A stretch of DNA of 41,683 nucleotides from Rhodothermus sp. (lineage in GTDB: Bacteria; Bacteroidota; Rhodothermia; Rhodothermales; Rhodothermaceae), in NCBI GenBank assembly GCA_015487635.1, contig WFPM01000035.1, forward strand, positions 1 through 41,683, given 5' to 3'. The translations under genes were made by a program, and so were the position numbers. Numbering within the stretch: the stretch's first letter is position 1; every line of letters starts with the position of its first letter. The notes beneath the pieces were generated by a model. It worked only from the letters and a program-made list of their open reading frames with translations. It searched no databases and was not told where the DNA came from. Positions 2,240 through 10,912 of the stretch are shown piece after piece.

Positions 2240-2320
2240 AGGCCCCAACCTGTGTGTTGTATGATGGACGATCATGCCCGCGTCAATCGGTTGCGCGAAG
2301 AGCCACGCACCGATATTCCG

Positions 2321-3241
2321 ATGGCGCGTCGCGTGCAGCGCTTCGTCGAAGCGCTGCAGCGGCACATCTGCAAGGCCATAGAAGACGTTGACGGCGCCGC
2401 ACAGTTTCGGCGGGATCCCTGGAATTATCGCGAAGGCGGTGGGGGGCTGACCTGCGTGCTGGAAAACGGTGCTGTCTTCGAAAAGGCGGGCGTCAACACG
2501 TCGGCCATCTGGGGACGGCTCTCGGAGCGGGCGGCCCGTGCCATCGGCGTGAATCCCGGCCCGTTCTTCGCCACGGGCCTTTCGCTGGTCATTCACCCGC
2601 GCTCGCCTTACGTGCCCAGTGTCCACGCCAACTTCCGCTACTTTGCGCTGGGTGAAGACCTGTTTCACCCGGAGGATCAGTGGTTCGGGGGTGGCGCCGA
2701 CCTAACTCCTTACTATCCTTTTCTGGAGGACGTACAACACTTTCACCGTGTCTGGAAGGATGTATGCGACCGACATCCGGGCGTGGCCGACTATGCGCGC
2801 TTCAAGGCGGCCTGCGACGCGTATTTCTACCTGCCGCATCGGGGCGAGATGCGCGGTGTAGGCGGCATTTTCTACGACTACCTGCGCGACGATCCTGAAG
2901 GGGCGTTTTTCTTCACCCGGGAGGCTGGCCGCGCCTTTCTGCGCTCGTACCTGCCCATCGTCGAGCGCCGCAAGGATATACCCTTCGGTGAGCGCGAACG
3001 GCATTTTCAGCTCCTGCGACGTGGCCGCTACGTGGAGTTTAACCTGATCTACGATCGAGGCACGCGCTTCGGATTGGAGTCGAACGGCCGTACCGAAAGC
3101 ATCCTGATGAGCCTGCCGCCCGAGGTGCGCTGGCAGTACGACTGGCGTCCTGTGCCCGGCTCGCCCGAAGAGGCCGCGCTCTGGTTCTTTCAGCCGCGCG
3201 ACTGGCTGGCGCTGACCGAGGCCGACGTGCCGCAGCCGTAG
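2321..3241 (+). CDS. hemF: oxygen-dependent coproporphyrinogen III oxidase
   Basis: HemF oxidatively decarboxylates coproporphyrinogen III to protoporphyrinogen IX with O2, a late step of heme synthesis, so it implies aerobic growth. The family pattern is complete: WNYREGGGGLTCVLENG near the N-terminus, VFEKAGVN, the glycine-rich FGGGADLTPYYPF, GVGGIFYDY, and RYVEFNLIYDRGTRFGL near the C-terminus. Length from ATG 2321 is 306 residues, close to the usual ~300. In-frame ATGs at 2261 and 2264 would add about 20 non-conserved residues and leave only 21 bp to the divergent small gene; none of the starts has a good ribosome site, so the start is uncertain. Other heme genes (hemH, hemL) lie 5-6 kb away, but this gene seems to be transcribed alone. 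Confidence 0.93.
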   Translation: MARRVQRFVEALQRHICKAIEDVDGAAQFRRDPWNYREGGGGLTCVLENGAVFEKAGVNTSAIWGRLSERAARAIGVNPGPFFATGLSLVIHPRSPYVPSVHANFRYFALGEDLFHPEDQWFGGGADLTPYYPFLEDVQHFHRVWKDVCDRHPGVADYARFKAACDAYFYLPHRGEMRGVGGIFYDYLRDDPEGAFFFTREAGRAFLRSYLPIVERRKDIPFGERERHFQLLRRGRYVEFNLIYDRGTRFGLESNGRTESILMSLPPEVRWQYDWRPVPGSPEEAALWFFQPRDWLALTEADVPQP

Positions 3242-3356: not shown

Positions 3357-4292
3357 ATGCAAGGGACGACGGAAGCACAGCACGCCTGGCGCACGCCGGA
3401 GATAGAAGAGCCGACCAACCGGTATTTCATTCATCCGCTGAGCTGGGCGCTGGTGCAGCGGCTGGCGCGCTGGGGCGTGCATCCCAACACGGTCTCGCTG
3501 GTGGGGCTGGCTCTGGGCGCCGGCGCTGCGGTGGCCTACTATCACTATTCCATCTGGTGGGCCTGCGTGCTGGGCTTTCTGCTGATGATCGGCTGGCACG
3601 TTATGGACGGTGCCGACGGCCAGCTGGCCCGTCTTACCGGCCGCACCTCTGAGATCGGCAAGGTGCTCGACGGCCTGTGCGACCACGGTACCTTCGTACT
3701 GATCTACATCAGCCTGGCGCTGGCAACCTATCCATCGGCGGGCTGGATCGCCTGGGCGCTGGCCGTGCTGGCCGGCGTCAGCCATATCGTGCAGGCCAGC
3801 GCCTACGAATTTCAGCGGCAGTCCTACGACTACTGGGTACACAATAAGCAGAACGCGCGGCCGGTCACGCCCGAAGCCTTTCGTGCAACGCTGGCCGAAA
3901 AGCGCGGATTGGCCCGATGGATGGGGCAACTCTATCTGGTCTATCTGCGCGTGCAGTACGGCGTGGGCGCGGCCGACCTGGAGCTGATGGGACTGCTGGA
4001 GGAGGCGCTGGAAAAGTTCGCCTATCCCGAGAAGGCCCGGCAGATGTACCGCTACGTGCACCGGCCACTGGTGCGCCGCTGGGCGATCATGAGCTCGAAC
4101 TATCGCACGCTGGCCATTTTCATCGCCTGCCTGTACGGCAAACCGCTGGCTTTTTTTGTGTTCGAACTGGTCGTGCTCAACCTGATCTTTCTGCTGCTGG
4201 TCGTGCAGCTGCGAATCCGGAACCGGCGCTTCCGATTGTGGTTGCGCCGCCATCTGGAAGGAAAGCCGGCAGATGCCTGGCTGCAACGGTAA
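3357..4292 (+). CDS. CDP-alcohol phosphotransferase, probable CDP-inositol-dependent inositol phospholipid synthase
   Basis: This is an integral membrane enzyme with the CDP-alcohol phosphotransferase signature D-G-x2-A-R-x8-G-x3-D-x3-D intact: D87, G88, A91, R92, G101, D105 and D109, preceded by D84. Several hydrophobic segments surround it (about 48-82, 112-145 and 250-285). It is the first gene of a compact operon with inositol-1-phosphate synthase and a CTP:inositol-phosphate cytidylyltransferase. This context suggests that it takes CDP-inositol, and not CDP-diacylglycerol, as the donor. From memory, R. marinus has been shown to make a dialkylether glycerophosphoinositol by this unusual route. 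The alternative, di-myo-inositol-phosphate phosphate synthase as in hyperthermophiles, cannot be ruled out by sequence alone. GAAGGCAGG sits 6-7 bases before the ATG. At 311 residues it is longer than minimal family members, with extra soluble residues at about 155-235. Confidence 0.85.
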   Translation: MQGTTEAQHAWRTPEIEEPTNRYFIHPLSWALVQRLARWGVHPNTVSLVGLALGAGAAVAYYHYSIWWACVLGFLLMIGWHVMDGADGQLARLTGRTSEIGKVLDGLCDHGTFVLIYISLALATYPSAGWIAWALAVLAGVSHIVQASAYEFQRQSYDYWVHNKQNARPVTPEAFRATLAEKRGLARWMGQLYLVYLRVQYGVGAADLELMGLLEEALEKFAYPEKARQMYRYVHRPLVRRWAIMSSNYRTLAIFIACLYGKPLAFFVFELVVLNLIFLLLVVQLRIRNRRFRLWLRRHLEGKPADAWLQR

Positions 4293-4322
4293 TTCATTCA
4301 CCATCCTGAACCGAAATTATCC

Positions 4323-5651
4323 ATGAGCGAAGCTGTTTCGATTGCCCCCCCGGAGGGCAAGTTGCTGGTGCTCACGCCGGGCCTGGGGGCCGTGGCGACC
4401 ACCTTCATTGCGGGCGTCGAGGCGGTTCGTCAGGGGCGTGCCCGGCCCTACGGATCGCTGACGCAATTGCAGACGATCCGGCTGGGCCGCCGCTCGGCCG
4501 GACGTAACCCGCTGATCAAGGAGTTTCTACCGCTGGCCGAACTCGACGACCTGGTTTTTGGCGCCTGGGATATCTTCCCGGACGACGCCTACGAGGCGGC
4601 CATGCGCGCGCAGGTGCTCGAAGAGCGCGACCTGAAACCGCTCGAAGACTTCCTGCGCACGATTCGACCCATGCCGGCCGCCTTCGACCGTCAGTATGTG
4701 CGTCGGCTCGACGGGCCCAACGTCAAAAAGGCCCGCACGAAGAAGGAGCTGGCCGAGATGCTCCGCGAGGACATCCGGCGCACAATCGAAGAGACCGGCG
4801 CTACCCGGGCCATCATGATCTGGTGTGGCTCGACCGAGGTGTACACGCGCCCGTCGGACTGCCACCGCTCGATCGAGGCCTTCGAGGCGGGCCTGGAGGC
4901 CAACGATCCGTCGATCACGCCTTCGCAGCTCTATGCCTACGCGGCCATCATGGAAGGTGTGCCCTATGCCAACGGGGCACCGAACCTGTCGGCCGATGTG
5001 CCCGCCCTTGAGCAACTGGCCGAGGAAAAAGGTGTGCCCATCGCCGGTAAGGACTTCAAGACCGGCCAGACCATGCTCAAAACGGTGGTGGCGCCGGCCT
5101 TCAAGATGCGCATGCTGGGCGTGCGAGGCTGGTTCTCGACAAACATCCTGGGCAACCGCGACGGCGAGGTGCTCGACGACATCGACAGCTTCCGCGCCAA
5201 GGAGGTGACCAAGTCGGGCGTGCTTGACACGATTCTGCAGCCCGACCTGTATCCGGAGCTCTATGGTAACCTCTACCACAAGGTGCGGATCAACTTCTAC
5301 CCGCCGCGCGGCGACGCCAAGGAAAGCTGGGACAACATCGACATTTTCGGCTGGATGGGCTACCCGATGCAGATCAAGATCAACTTCCTGTGTCGGGACT
5401 CCATCTTGGCCGCGCCGATCGTGCTGGATCTGGCGCTGTTTCTGGATCTGGCCGCGCGGGCCGGCCTCAAGGGCATTCAGGAGTGGCTCTCGTTCTACTT
5501 CAAGAGCCCGCATGTGCAGGAAGGCCACGTGCCCGAGCACGACCTGTTCATCCAGCACATCCGGCTGAAGAACACGCTGCGCGTGCTGGGCGGCGAGTCG
5601 CCCATCACGCATCTGTCCGAAGAGTTTGAGTTGTACGAGAACCTGAGATGA
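4323..5651 (+). CDS. ino1: inositol-1-phosphate synthase (MIPS)
   Basis: It isomerises glucose 6-phosphate to L-myo-inositol 1-phosphate using bound NAD+. Residues ~14-28 hold the nucleotide-binding loop (LLVLTPGLGAVATTF). Further family marks are WCGSTEVY, FEAGLEANDPSITPSQLYAY, PIAGKDFKTGQTMLKTVVAP and WFSTNILGNRDGEVL; the last two supply active-site lysine, asparagine and aspartate residues in known enzymes. The 442-residue length fits the actinobacterial/archaeal-size group rather than the longer eukaryotic one. It follows the CDP-alcohol phosphotransferase by 30 bp, and its TGA overlaps the ATG of the cytidylyltransferase by 4 bp, so the three products are probably co-translated. It would supply the inositol phosphate that the next enzyme activates with CTP. 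Confidence 0.95.
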   Translation: MSEAVSIAPPEGKLLVLTPGLGAVATTFIAGVEAVRQGRARPYGSLTQLQTIRLGRRSAGRNPLIKEFLPLAELDDLVFGAWDIFPDDAYEAAMRAQVLEERDLKPLEDFLRTIRPMPAAFDRQYVRRLDGPNVKKARTKKELAEMLREDIRRTIEETGATRAIMIWCGSTEVYTRPSDCHRSIEAFEAGLEANDPSITPSQLYAYAAIMEGVPYANGAPNLSADVPALEQLAEEKGVPIAGKDFKTGQTMLKTVVAPAFKMRMLGVRGWFSTNILGNRDGEVLDDIDSFRAKEVTKSGVLDTILQPDLYPELYGNLYHKVRINFYPPRGDAKESWDNIDIFGWMGYPMQIKINFLCRDSILAAPIVLDLALFLDLAARAGLKGIQEWLSFYFKSPHVQEGHVPEHDLFIQHIRLKNTLRVLGGESPITHLSEEFELYENLR

Positions 5652-6403
5652 TTCAGAATGGCGCAGGACCCCGGACGGGCATCGTGCTGGCGGCCGGGCT
5701 GGGCTCGCGGCTGGCCGGTGCCCGCCCGGGGTTTCAATTGAAACCCCTGACACCGGTGGCCGGCATGCCGCTGATTCTGCGTACGTTGCGCAGTGTGGCG
5801 CTGGCCGGCTGTCGGGAAGTGGTCATTGTCGTGGGCTACCACGGCGAGGAGGTGCAGGAGGCGGTCCGTCGGCACTACCGGGGGCCGCTCCGGGTGCACT
5901 TCGCCCACAACCCGCACTACGAACTGCAGAACGGCCTGTCGGTGCTGGCCGCGCGACCGTACGTGAAGGAGGAGCCCTTTCTGCTCACCATGGCCGATCA
6001 CGTGCTGGGGGACGAACTCATGGCCCTGGTGCGCACGCATCGGCCCCCGGAAGATGGCGCCACGCTGCTGGTGGACTACCGCATCGATCAGATTTTCGAC
6101 CTGGACGATGCCACCAAGGTGCGCGTCGAGGACGGCTGGATCGTGGACATCGGCAAGCACCTGACCGACTTCAACGCCATCGACACGGGCGTCTTCGTCT
6201 GCACCTTTGCGCTGATGGAGGCGCTGGAGGCCGTCTACCGGGAGCAGGGCGACGCATCGCTCTCCGACGGCGTGCGCCGACTGGCCTGCGTCCACCGCAT
6301 GGCCGCGCTCGACATCGGCGACGGCTTCTGGCAGGACGTCGACACGCCCGAGATGCTCGCCTACGCCGAACGCCGCCTGCTGGAAATGGCCCGATCTGGA
6401 TAA
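5648..6403 (+). CDS. nucleotidyltransferase, probable CTP:inositol-1-phosphate cytidylyltransferase
   Basis: A 251-residue sugar-nucleotide-transferase fold protein. GIVLAAGLGSRL at residues 11-22 is the NTP-binding loop. LKPLTPVAGMPLI contains the usual lysine and PL motif, and TMADHVLGDELM contains the metal-binding aspartate. Sequence alone would allow several sugar-phosphate substrates. Its position, overlapping the inositol-1-phosphate synthase stop by 4 bp and sharing an operon with a CDP-alcohol phosphotransferase, points to CDP-inositol formation. In archaeal and Thermotoga di-myo-inositol phosphate pathways a similar domain is often fused to the transferase; here the two activities are on separate genes. 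It is the last gene of its operon, followed at once by a rho-independent terminator. Confidence 0.85.
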   Translation: MIQNGAGPRTGIVLAAGLGSRLAGARPGFQLKPLTPVAGMPLILRTLRSVALAGCREVVIVVGYHGEEVQEAVRRHYRGPLRVHFAHNPHYELQNGLSVLAARPYVKEEPFLLTMADHVLGDELMALVRTHRPPEDGATLLVDYRIDQIFDLDDATKVRVEDGWIVDIGKHLTDFNAIDTGVFVCTFALMEALEAVYREQGDASLSDGVRRLACVHRMAALDIGDGFWQDVDTPEMLAYAERRLLEMARSG

Positions 6404-8260: not shown

Positions 8261-9592
8261 ATGACGCCTCGGCAGTTTCTGAAGCACTACCGATACGACG
8301 AACGGCTGGTTCGCGGCGGGTATTTTCCTTTGGCGCCGCTTACGGTCGATCCCGGGGAGACGGTTGGCGTGGTTCTGCTCAACCTGGGCGGGCCCGAACG
8401 CGTGGAAGAAGTGGAGCCCTTTCTGTACAACCTGTTCATGGATCCGGCCATCATCGACATCCCTCTGAAAGGCATTGCCCGCCACTGGCTCTGCCGTCTG
8501 ATTGCCCGGCTGCGTGCTAAGAAGGTGGGTAAAGATTATGAGATGATCGGAGGTGGTTCGCCGCTGAACCGGCTGACGCGAGAGCAGGCGCAGGCGCTGG
8601 AGCGGCTGCTGAACCGGCGCTTCGGGCAACCGGCCGGCGTGCACTTCCGCACCTATATCGCCATGCGCTACTGGCACCCGCTCAGCGAGGAAGCAGCCGC
8701 GCAGATGCAGGCCGAAGGAGTAGACAAGGTGGTGTTGTTGCCGCTCTATCCGCAGTATTCCAAGACGACCACCGGTTCGTCGTTGCTCTACTGGTGGACG
8801 TTGGAGCAGACGGGCGAAATTCCACGCTGGCCTACCACTTACGTGTACGAATACGCAGCGCATCCCAAATACATTCAGGCCATCAGCGAGCGGATCGACG
8901 AGGCGCTGCAGCGCTTTCCGAAGAACGTACGCTCCGAAGTACACCTGGTCTTCAGTGCGCACGGCACGCCGCTGGTCGAGATGAAGGAGCGGCGCGACCC
9001 ATACTGCTGCCTGATCCACTCCACGGTGGATCGGGTGATGGCCTACCGAAAGCATGACCTGCCTTACCACGTGTCGTTTCAGAGCAAGGTGGGGCCGGGT
9101 GAGTGGCTGACGCCGAGCACGCCCGACAAGCTGGCCGAGCTGGCGCAACAGGGCGTGCAGGCCGTGCTGATGGTGCCGGTGGCGTTCGTGACTGACCATA
9201 TCGAAACTTCCTTCGAGCTGGACATCGAAGTGCGGGAAGAGGCCGAGCAGTTCGGCATTACCCATTACGAAGTGATGCCGGCGCTGAATTGCCATCCACT
9301 GTTCATCGAGGCGCTGGCCGAGGTGACTGTGGCGCAGCTCCGGCTGCCGGTACCACCGGAGACGGCCGGTGTGGCAGGAGATGGGGCGCCGGCCAAGACG
9401 CCTTATCCGATCCGTCCGCTTGACGAACTGCCCCGCTACCATCCGCGCGTGCGCAAGACGCGTTGCCATCAGTGCGAGCACATCACCGAGGCGCGATGCT
9501 GGATTCCCTCGGAGTGTGAGCCAGCGTCTGAGAACGCCGAAAGCACGGCACCGCCGAAGCCTTCTGTTCACTCCAAACGGCCTGCCTCGTAA
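8261..9592 (+). CDS. hemH: ferrochelatase with four-cysteine C-terminal tail
   Basis: It inserts Fe2+ into protoporphyrin IX to give heme. Family marks are VVLLNLGGPE near residue 46, the catalytic histidine in FSAHGTP, and FVTDHIETSFELDIE with the active-site glutamate. YEMIGGGSPLN and LPLYPQYSKTTTGS are also typical. The core ends near residue 370. After a proline-rich linker there is a tail with C402, C405, C413 and C419 (C-x2-C-x7-C-x5-C), then a Ser/Pro/Lys-rich end. Some bacterial and animal ferrochelatases carry a C-terminal [2Fe-2S] cluster; whether this tail does the same or binds zinc is inference. The first ~40 residues before the core are also extra. The 443-residue length exceeds the usual 310-370. 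AAGGTGAGG precedes the ATG. hemL follows after 6 bp, so the two are probably co-transcribed. Confidence 0.95.
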   Translation: MTPRQFLKHYRYDERLVRGGYFPLAPLTVDPGETVGVVLLNLGGPERVEEVEPFLYNLFMDPAIIDIPLKGIARHWLCRLIARLRAKKVGKDYEMIGGGSPLNRLTREQAQALERLLNRRFGQPAGVHFRTYIAMRYWHPLSEEAAAQMQAEGVDKVVLLPLYPQYSKTTTGSSLLYWWTLEQTGEIPRWPTTYVYEYAAHPKYIQAISERIDEALQRFPKNVRSEVHLVFSAHGTPLVEMKERRDPYCCLIHSTVDRVMAYRKHDLPYHVSFQSKVGPGEWLTPSTPDKLAELAQQGVQAVLMVPVAFVTDHIETSFELDIEVREEAEQFGITHYEVMPALNCHPLFIEALAEVTVAQLRLPVPPETAGVAGDGAPAKTPYPIRPLDELPRYHPRVRKTRCHQCEHITEARCWIPSECEPASENAESTAPPKPSVHSKRPAS

Positions 9593-9598
9593 GGAGCG

Positions 9599-10912
9599 AT
9601 GCAGCTATCGCGCAGTCAGGCGCTTTTCGAGCGGGCCCAACGGGTTATCCCGGGCGGCGTCAATTCGCCGGTTCGTGCCTTCGGCAGCGTAGGAGGGACG
9701 CCGCCGTTCATCGCGCGGGCGCAGGGCGCCTACATCGAAGACGTTGACGGCAACCGCTACATCGACTACGTCGGCTCCTGGGGGCCGATGCTCTTCGGGC
9801 ACGCCGATCCCGACGTGGTGCGGGCCATTCAGGAAGCGGCTGCACATTCCCCTTCTTTCGGCGCACCCACCGAGCTGGAAGTGCGCGTGGCCGAACTCAT
9901 CTGTGAGCTGGTGCCGTCGATCGAAATGGTGCGGCTGGTCAACTCGGGCACCGAGGCGACCATGAGCGCCGTGCGCCTGGCCCGTGCCTACACGGGGCGT
10001 CCCAAGATCATCAAGTTCGAAGGGCACTACCACGGGCACGCCGACTTTTTCCTGATCGCGGCTGGAAGTGGAGCGCTCACCTATGGCCGTCCCAACTCGC
10101 CGGGGGTGACACCGGGCACGGCGCAGGATACGCTGTTGGCCCGCTTCAACGATCTACAGCACGTCGAACAACTGGTGGAAGCCAACGCGGGCGAAGTGGC
10201 CGCCGTCATTCTGGAGCCGGTGGCCGGCAACATGGGCTGCGTGCCGCCGGAGCCGGGCTTTCTGGAAGGATTGCGGGCGCTCTGCAACCGGCACGGCATC
10301 CTGCTTATCTTCGACGAGGTGATGACGGGCTTTCGGGTGGCACGAGGCGGGGCACAGGAGCGCTACGGTGTGCTGCCCGATCTGACCACCCTCGGCAAGG
10401 TGATCGGCGGCGGGCTCCCGGTGGGGGCCTACGGCGGGCGGCGTGAGATTATGGAGTACGTTGCGCCGAAAGGGTCTGTCTATCAGGCCGGCACGCTCTC
10501 GGGCAACCCACTGGCCATGGCCGCTGGCTATGCCGTGCTGCGCAAGATCGCCGACACGCCGGATCTATATGAGCGGCTGGAGCGCTTTGGCGCCGCGTTA
10601 GAGGAGGGTGTCCGTGAAAATCTGAAAGGGCTGGGGCTGGACCTGTACTTCACGCGCGTGGGCGCCATGGCCACGCTGTTCTTCACGCCGGAGCGCGTCG
10701 TGGACTACGAGACGGCCCGCCGCTGCGACACCCGGCGCTTCGCCCGCTACTTCCATGCCATGCTGGAAGAGGGCGTTTACCTGCCGCCGTCTCAGTTCGA
10801 GGCGTTCTTCTTCTCGACGGCCCACGGCGAGCGCGAGTTGGAGCAGACGCTCAGCGCCCAGCGCCGGGCGCTTGCGCGCGCTTGCGCCGACGACGGCGCC
10901 GACGCGGCGTAA
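9599..10912 (+). CDS. hemL: glutamate-1-semialdehyde 2,1-aminomutase
   Basis: A PLP enzyme that makes 5-aminolevulinate from glutamate 1-semialdehyde, the C5 route to tetrapyrroles. VIPGGVNSPVRAF near residue 16 is diagnostic of HemL among class-III aminotransferases. NSGTEATMSAVRLARAYTGR, FEGHYHGHAD, LIFDEVMTGFR and TTLGKVIGGGLPVGAYGG follow in order; the lysine in the last motif binds PLP. At 437 residues it is standard. AAGGAG lies just before the ATG, and hemH ends 6 bp upstream, so the operon couples the first committed and the last step of heme synthesis. The last 62 bp overlap the 3' end of the convergent RNase R gene, and no terminator separates them. Confidence 0.96.
   Translation: MQLSRSQALFERAQRVIPGGVNSPVRAFGSVGGTPPFIARAQGAYIEDVDGNRYIDYVGSWGPMLFGHADPDVVRAIQEAAAHSPSFGAPTELEVRVAELICELVPSIEMVRLVNSGTEATMSAVRLARAYTGRPKIIKFEGHYHGHADFFLIAAGSGALTYGRPNSPGVTPGTAQDTLLARFNDLQHVEQLVEANAGEVAAVILEPVAGNMGCVPPEPGFLEGLRALCNRHGILLIFDEVMTGFRVARGGAQERYGVLPDLTTLGKVIGGGLPVGAYGGRREIMEYVAPKGSVYQAGTLSGNPLAMAAGYAVLRKIADTPDLYERLERFGAALEEGVRENLKGLGLDLYFTRVGAMATLFFTPERVVDYETARRCDTRRFARYFHAMLEEGVYLPPSQFEAFFFSTAHGERELEQTLSAQRRALARACADDGADAA

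Follow-up and report, generated by a model that had tools for sequence, protein, structure and literature searches.

The closest described counterparts of the locus studied here are routes to inositol lipids and to an inositol solute. The locus lies in a 41,683-nucleotide contig of Rhodothermus sp. (WFPM01000035.1 of assembly GCA_015487635.1), which at its full length we call the window, and encodes a CDP-alcohol phosphotransferase (P1), a myo-inositol-1-phosphate synthase (MIPS; P2), and a protein resembling CTP:inositol-1-phosphate cytidylyltransferase (IPCT; P3). Its nearest counterpart belongs to the same genus: Jorge, Borges and Santos reportedly described in 2015 a CDP-inositol-dependent synthesis of a dialkylether glycerophosphoinositol in R. 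marinus, from which we know of no difference, and their abstract is said to give alkyl ethers on glycerol and a lipid mass of 810 Da. The first-pass annotation of the window had named R. marinus as the organism of that report, in agreement with PMC10667739, which cites the paper by title and lists Rhodothermus among the producers of diether glycerol. The same logic, with CDP-inositol as the donor, was proposed for a cluster of Bacteroides vulgatus and Prevotella (Heaver 2022, PMC9246714). Likened by gene types only, that cluster resembles ours in having a MIPS, an NTP transferase, and a CDP-alcohol phosphatidyltransferase; it further encodes a HAD hydrolase that is suggested to transfer the head group onto ceramide, a type of protein missing from our three genes. 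The IPCT/DIPPS enzyme (4mnd/2xme) of di-myo-inositol phosphate (DIP) synthesis has CDP-inositol chemistry in common with the trio, and P3 is homologous to it over its whole length. It is, however, a fused protein, whereas Rhodothermus has two separate ones, and P1 resembles lipid enzymes at least as much as it does DIPPS. The phosphatidylinositol-phosphate (PIP) synthase route of mycobacteria and Bacteroides thetaiotaomicron also uses a PF01066 enzyme and inositol phosphate from MIPS, but there the activated partner is the lipid and a PIP phosphatase is required (PMC9246714), whereas Rhodothermus links a head-group cytidylyltransferase instead.

We put at roughly 85% the probability that the trio is an operon for an inositol phospholipid made through CDP-inositol, with the head group rather than the lipid being activated. 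The core of this route is already known for the genus, having reportedly been published in 2015, and our finding is a correct rediscovery. The features are as follows.

3357..4292, + strand: P1, CDP-alcohol phosphotransferase, proposed CDP-inositol:lipid phosphoinositol transferase; 311 amino acids, ATG to TAA, PF01066
4323..5651, + strand: P2, MIPS; 442 amino acids, ATG to TGA, PF07994 and PF01658
5648..6403, + strand: P3, IPCT-like; 251 amino acids, ATG to TAA, PF12804 and PF00483
5648..5651, + strand: ATGA overlap of the P2 stop and the P3 start, 4 bp

The three open reading frames (ORFs) stand head to tail, with 30 bp between P1 and P2, in a genome of 3.03 Mb that is 92.6% complete and in which the trio contig is C35 (C, G, L, and f numbers are our designations of contigs, genomes, loci, and families). 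The ORFs and their Pfam families confirm the three-gene cluster called by the first-pass annotation, and the ATGA at 5648-5651 confirms the 4-bp overlap it had reported.

P2 is a MIPS by its matches to PF07994 (309.6 bits) and PF01658 (108.5 bits), both over the cut-off, and its best match in the PDB is the inositol-3-phosphate synthase 7nwr (E-value 7.1e-164). P3 matches PF12804 (58.1 bits) and PF00483 (44.3 bits), and its best relatives of solved structure are the IPCT sequences 4mnd and 2xme (89.6 and 89.5 bits, E-value ~2e-24), which come from Archaeoglobus. The third best, at 60.6 bits, is 4jd0, given as the IPCT of Thermotoga maritima in PMC12275187. A family profile built from the P3 proteins of 19 trio loci matches 2xme, 4mnd, and 4jd0 near full length (127, 125.5, and 100.9 bits; positions 1-232 of 238 in 2xme), and the phosphocholine cytidylyltransferase 1jyk in its N-terminal half only (53.9 bits). 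R21, K32, D117, and D232, presumably the catalytic residues, are invariant in the 19 proteins. P3 thus combines full-length similarity to proven IPCTs with the GxGxR motif, the lysine, and the acidic residues, and it is IPCT-like from end to end. It scores 133.7 bits against the IPCT part of NF041135, whose cut-off of 580 is set for the bifunctional protein. P1 belongs to PF01066 (E-value 6.3e-12, 46.6 bits, cut-off 22). Its catalytic motif is complete (D84-xx-D87-G88-xx-A91-R92-x8-G101-xxx-D105-xxx-D109, i.e., DxxDGxxAR-x8-GxxxDxxxD at residues 84-109), as had been noted earlier in a version that left out D84, and D84, D87, G101, D105, and D109 are invariant in an alignment of 36 P1 sequences.

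We searched 244 genomes of the class Rhodothermia and found a P1 match (E-value 1e-10) in 32. Sixteen of these, the window's own genome included, have a close P1 (at least 44% identity; G172 is counted here with a partial P1, 52% identical over 222 residues), and the other 16 a distant one (24-34%). Of the 16 genomes with a close P1, 13 carry the genes in the order P1-P2-P3 (7/7 Rhodothermus, four in family f11, two in f21), so the arrangement is not due to chance: MIPS, IPCT, and CDP-alcohol phosphotransferase are linked. With the relatives' start codons chosen by script, 12 of the 13 trios (the window and 11 relatives) share the 4-bp overlap, and L047 has an overlap of 1 bp. The Rhodothermus genome G167 carries the trio with 97.7% (P1), 99.5% (P2), and 96.8% (P3) identity, and the record JALSJJ010000168.1, named "Rhodothermus sp.", has a P1 that is 84% identical. 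A sample of the phylum gave P1 matches in 44 of 395 genomes (E-value 1e-12), the close ones being those of Rhodothermus and f21. More distant relatives of P1 (27-31% identity) were observed at L051-L057, where the surrounding stretch holds no relative of the cytidylyltransferase or of MIPS.

Beyond the class search, a scan of named genomes gave 133 P1 relatives, of which the best 80 were kept; all counts out of 80 refer to these, and seven of them are loci already in the class search. Neighbours were counted by tblastn within 8 kb of P1, where the contig allowed, with thresholds of at least 60 bits for IPCT, 200 for serine palmitoyltransferase (SPT), 80 for the ceramide-synthase-like (CerS-like) GNAT protein, and 200 for fatty acyl-AMP ligase. 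Most of the loci come from Alphaproteobacteria (Gluconacetobacter, Acidocella, Nitrospirillum, and Emcibacter among them), the rest from Rhodothermia, Kapabacteria, some Gammaproteobacteria, and one metagenome-assembled genome of Geothrix. An IPCT relative is present in 58 of the 80, on the same strand as P1 and less than 1.8 kb from it in 45 of these 58, and IPCT occurs together with MIPS in 52 of the 80. Ten of those 52 loci have the long MIPS type of the window and 42 a short type (one short example scores 421.6 bits against TIGR03450, cut-off 638). Our best argument that the head group is inositol is that two MIPS subfamilies stand beside one and the same P1/P3 pair. The sequences make an inositol head group and a CDP-inositol donor very likely. 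The earlier view that the gene set fits a CDP-inositol route is upheld by a P3 that is IPCT-like over its full length, a P1 with no special closeness to DIPPS, and a MIPS that belongs to the operon or, in other phyla, lies near P1/P3.

The proposed route would be Kennedy-like, the head group and not the lipid being activated. P2 would cyclise glucose-6-phosphate to L-myo-inositol-1-phosphate (the 1D-3-phosphate), which P3 would convert with CTP to CDP-inositol and pyrophosphate. In the membrane, P1 would then use CDP-inositol to place inositol-1-phosphate on the hydroxyl group of a lipid, releasing CMP, and neither a PIP intermediate nor a phosphatase would be needed. The predicted head group would be L-1- (D-3-) phosphoinositol, opposite to that of ordinary phosphatidylinositol. 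We infer the substrate of each enzyme, the lipid structure, and this stereochemistry from the genes and the route.

Several observations weigh against such an operon. The best NCBIfam matches of P1 are users of CDP-lipids, archaetidylinositol-phosphate synthase (54.4 bits, cut-off 180) and PIP synthase (39.9 bits, cut-off 170), and P1 reaches just 30 of 580 bits against the IPCT/DIPPS fusion NF041135. The P1 profile comes nearest to AF2299 (43.2 bits), with lower scores for CEPT1 (31.7), CHPT1 (28.6), a CDP-diacylglycerol-inositol enzyme (27.8), and DIPPS (25). In 13 of the 58 loci that have both, P1 and IPCT stand on opposite strands or are separated by more than 2.5 kb; 22 of the 80 show no IPCT within the stretch searched; and three Rhodothermia loci with a close P1 (L042, L046, L049) have no relative of P2 or P3 in the 10-19 kb around it. 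The NCBIfam ranking would suit a P1 that is an ordinary PIP-synthase-type enzyme joining CDP-diacylglycerol and inositol phosphate, with P3 serving something else. Both scores are nevertheless far below the equivalog cut-offs, and the frequent sharing of a locus by P1 and P3 relatives (58/80), mostly close together on one strand (45/58), also argues against this reading, which we consider very unlikely.

Synthesis of the solute DIP by the operon is suggested by the homology that P3 has with the IPCT portion of the archaeal enzyme for DIP. Yet both P3 and P1 fall far short of the NF041135 cut-off and are separate proteins, and P1 appears no closer to the DIPPS half than to lipid enzymes, although the profile ranking is not decisive between the two. 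Some acetic acid bacteria, Gluconacetobacter and Acetobacter among them, have a related trio and are not known for DIP, and R. marinus is said to lack it; we judge this reading highly improbable. P3 might also activate another phospho-alcohol (choline, glycerate, or aminoethylphosphonate). The cytidylyltransferase family is versatile, CpgD being a phosphoglycerate cytidylyltransferase although the T. maritima IPCT is its top structural match (PMC12275187), and the distant P1 relative at L060 (family f16) lies among genes that by eye resemble those of phosphonate synthesis (aminoethylphosphonate transaminase and phosphonopyruvate decarboxylase). The MIPS that accompanies P1 and IPCT in 52 of the 80 loci and in the window speaks against this, as does the full-length similarity of P3, which is best to IPCTs, and we give the idea very little credence.

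Four other PF01066 proteins of the genome (on C203, C52, C110, and C91) were considered as the synthase and rejected: they share 29-35% identity with P1 over 58-126 amino acids, and their stretches show no IPCT-like neighbour in the ORF lists, inspected by eye only. The one at G000:C203 (L168:6553-7434) is a fifth PF01066 protein of 293 amino acids (33.7 bits), 29% identical to P1 over 126 amino acids and with no NCBIfam match at 1e-10.

The proposed CDP-inositol operon leaves room for more than one lipid acceptor, and here the first-pass annotation is only partly supported. Its route to an inositol lipid through CDP-inositol is supported, but its suggestion that these genes imply a backbone with ether links is not, the evidence for such a backbone being the 2015 report. 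PcrB/GGGPS (PF01884) has no match in the seven Rhodothermus genomes, whereas seven of 14 control genomes matched, five of them over the cut-off, and archaeal-type ether lipids were rejected on this basis. PF01869 and PF02913 each occur once per genome in all seven, in frames of 315-318 and 979-999 amino acids. We take PF02913 to be a domain of alkyl-dihydroxyacetone-phosphate (alkyl-DHAP) synthases, which are roughly 600 amino acids long. According to PMC13274423, Ger and PlsA have one or two PF01869 activation domains, and homologues without an activation domain exist; PMC9702350 gave no hit for the domain terms. By their predicted sizes, the two frames thus seem unlike the known ether enzymes. 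Known ether-lipid enzymes (PlsA/Ger-type, alkyl-DHAP-synthase-type, PcrB/GGGPS) were accordingly not recognised in the seven genomes, in a search that did not cover PlsA homologues lacking the activation domain, and Rhodothermus may have an ether-forming enzyme of a new type or such a PlsA relative.

The same seven genomes carry SPT-, CerS-, and ceramide-reductase-like (CerR-like) genes, and together with the failure to recognise an ether-lipid enzyme this reopens the question of the acceptor. Our first choice, at somewhat better than even odds, is the dialkylether glycerol of the R. marinus report; dihydroceramide comes second as a tentative option, and diacylglycerol is last and improbable. 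More than one acceptor may be used. If dihydroceramide is an acceptor, or one of several, P1 would make inositol phosphorylceramide with CDP-inositol as donor, on ceramide supplied by the genome's own SPT, ceramide synthase, and ceramide reductase. The SPT-like protein of Rhodothermus, present in 7/7 genomes, has its best PDB matches in the serine palmitoyltransferases 8guh/3a2b (412 bits, versus 249.5 for cysteate acyltransferase), although it stays below the NCBIfam cut-off (501.2 of 640 bits). The other two matches to the SPT query in the window's genome exceed the cut-offs for glycine acetyltransferase and BioF, and hence the SPT-like protein is not simply one of those. In all seven genomes, a GNAT protein 40-41% identical to the CerS-like protein of a proteobacterial locus follows the SPT match by 43-64 bp, and a CerR-like protein (33-37% identity) is encoded as well. 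The GNAT protein would be the ceramide synthase and the epimerase CerR, putative names borrowed from the Caulobacter pathway, which weakens the argument. According to PMC11334938, the genes for SPT, bCerS, and CerR frequently form clusters, but those of Bacteroidota do not. Synthesis of dihydroceramide therefore appears possible.

Among the 80 named loci, an SPT relative lies within 8 kb of P1 in 21, the CerS-like GNAT in 13, and either in 25; in 19, one or both accompany the whole trio. The SPT of L078 passes its curated cut-off (661.2 versus 500 bits). A fatty acyl-AMP ligase was found in 14 of the 80. By mass arithmetic, a C36:0 dihydroceramide phosphoinositol (e.g., a C19 base with a C17 acyl chain) has 809.578 Da ([M+H]+ 810.585) and di-C17-alkylglycerol phosphoinositol 810.599 Da, both beside the 810 Da reportedly given for the R. 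marinus lipid. The nitrogen rule separates the two, and we do not claim that the published assignment is wrong.

Other evidence points away from ceramide, beginning with the alkyl ethers on glycerol that the R. marinus abstract reportedly describes. No SPT or CerS relative occurs in any Rhodothermia trio stretch examined (6-19 kb), and in the window's genome neither match lies on C35. The CerS-like gene is found in 240 of the 244 class genomes and P1 in 32 (E-value 1e-10). The gene thus does not track P1, its presence says little, and we rejected their co-occurrence as evidence for ceramide. We also built a P1 tree of 100 rows, from which we left out the partial L050, L055, L059, and L064, as well as L066-L070, L072, and L089, which come from the same genomes as other loci, so that G172 is missing altogether. 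It places Rhodothermia, two Bacteroidota, and one Kapabacteria in a group of 18 rows (96/95). Apart from the pair L115/L122, whose placement may be a long-branch effect, as the tree program warned, the P1 proteins in sphingolipid context fall in a separate proteobacterial group; they make up 23 of its 37 rows, and Geothrix is also placed in it. On balance, P1 and its relatives could be CDP-inositol:ceramide phosphoinositol transferases, or users of both ceramide and glycerolipids, which we regard as possible but doubtful. In the literature searched, the proposal in PMC9246714 was the only CDP-inositol route to sphingolipids that we found.

The surroundings of these genes show further features. 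At L164:9260-11696 (G000:C73), the SPT-like gene is followed by the CerS-like GNAT, a pair also present in six other Rhodothermus genomes, and an MJ1255/VC2487-like glycosyltransferase (152.2 bits, cut-off 195.9) lies just upstream. MIPS-IPCT-P1, SPT, and a GT4 glycosyltransferase (family assigned by Pfam on the member of L101) share one stretch at L085, L095-L097, L105, L109, L120, L126, L132, L135, and L137, with a PIG-L-like protein and, in between, LptF/LptG-like genes, both recognised by eye. These stretches look like a locus for glycosylated inositol phosphorylceramide. The protein at L091:14883-16250 matches NTP_transf_3 weakly (20.4 bits, short of the cut-off of 27) and has a part that matches CDP-alcohol phosphotransferase (26 bits, over the cut-off of 22); its relatives occur at loci where P1 lacks an IPCT (L073, L075, L077, L083, L087, L088, L092, L100, and others), and in Emcibacter-type loci a gene that by eye is pyridoxal-phosphate (PLP)-decarboxylase-like precedes it.

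Distant relatives of P1 and IPCT stand with a short-type MIPS, a PimA-like glycosyltransferase (by eye), and a PLD-like gene at L058:6295-11789 and L059, perhaps for mannosylated inositol lipids. At L060-L063 and L065, distant P1 relatives lie near genes for a nucleotidyltransferase, a PLD-like protein, and a glycosyltransferase, perhaps for phosphonolipid synthesis. The PLD-like protein near P1 (L043, L044, L058-L065, and the duplicates L067/L068) was rejected as a conserved partner, and a search without a positive control gave no match to it in the seven Rhodothermus genomes. In the window, haem genes flank the trio: ferrochelatase at 8261-9592 and, named by eye only, coproporphyrinogen oxidase and glutamate-1-semialdehyde aminomutase at 2300-3241 and 9599-10912.

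The trio raises two questions: what forms the reported ether backbone, given that none of the known enzymes is recognised, and whether a single module that activates the head group yields glycerolipids or sphingolipids of inositol, or both, across distant bacteria. If P1 and its relatives do use ceramide, inositol phosphorylceramide would be made without phosphatidylinositol or an AUR1-type enzyme, in a manner common to Rhodothermus, many Alphaproteobacteria, and others. Several proteobacterial loci would then elaborate the product through a glycosyltransferase and a PIG-L-like deacetylase, as a bacterial counterpart of glycosyl inositol phosphorylceramides, and the "810 Da ether lipid" of R. 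marinus would deserve re-examination for nitrogen.

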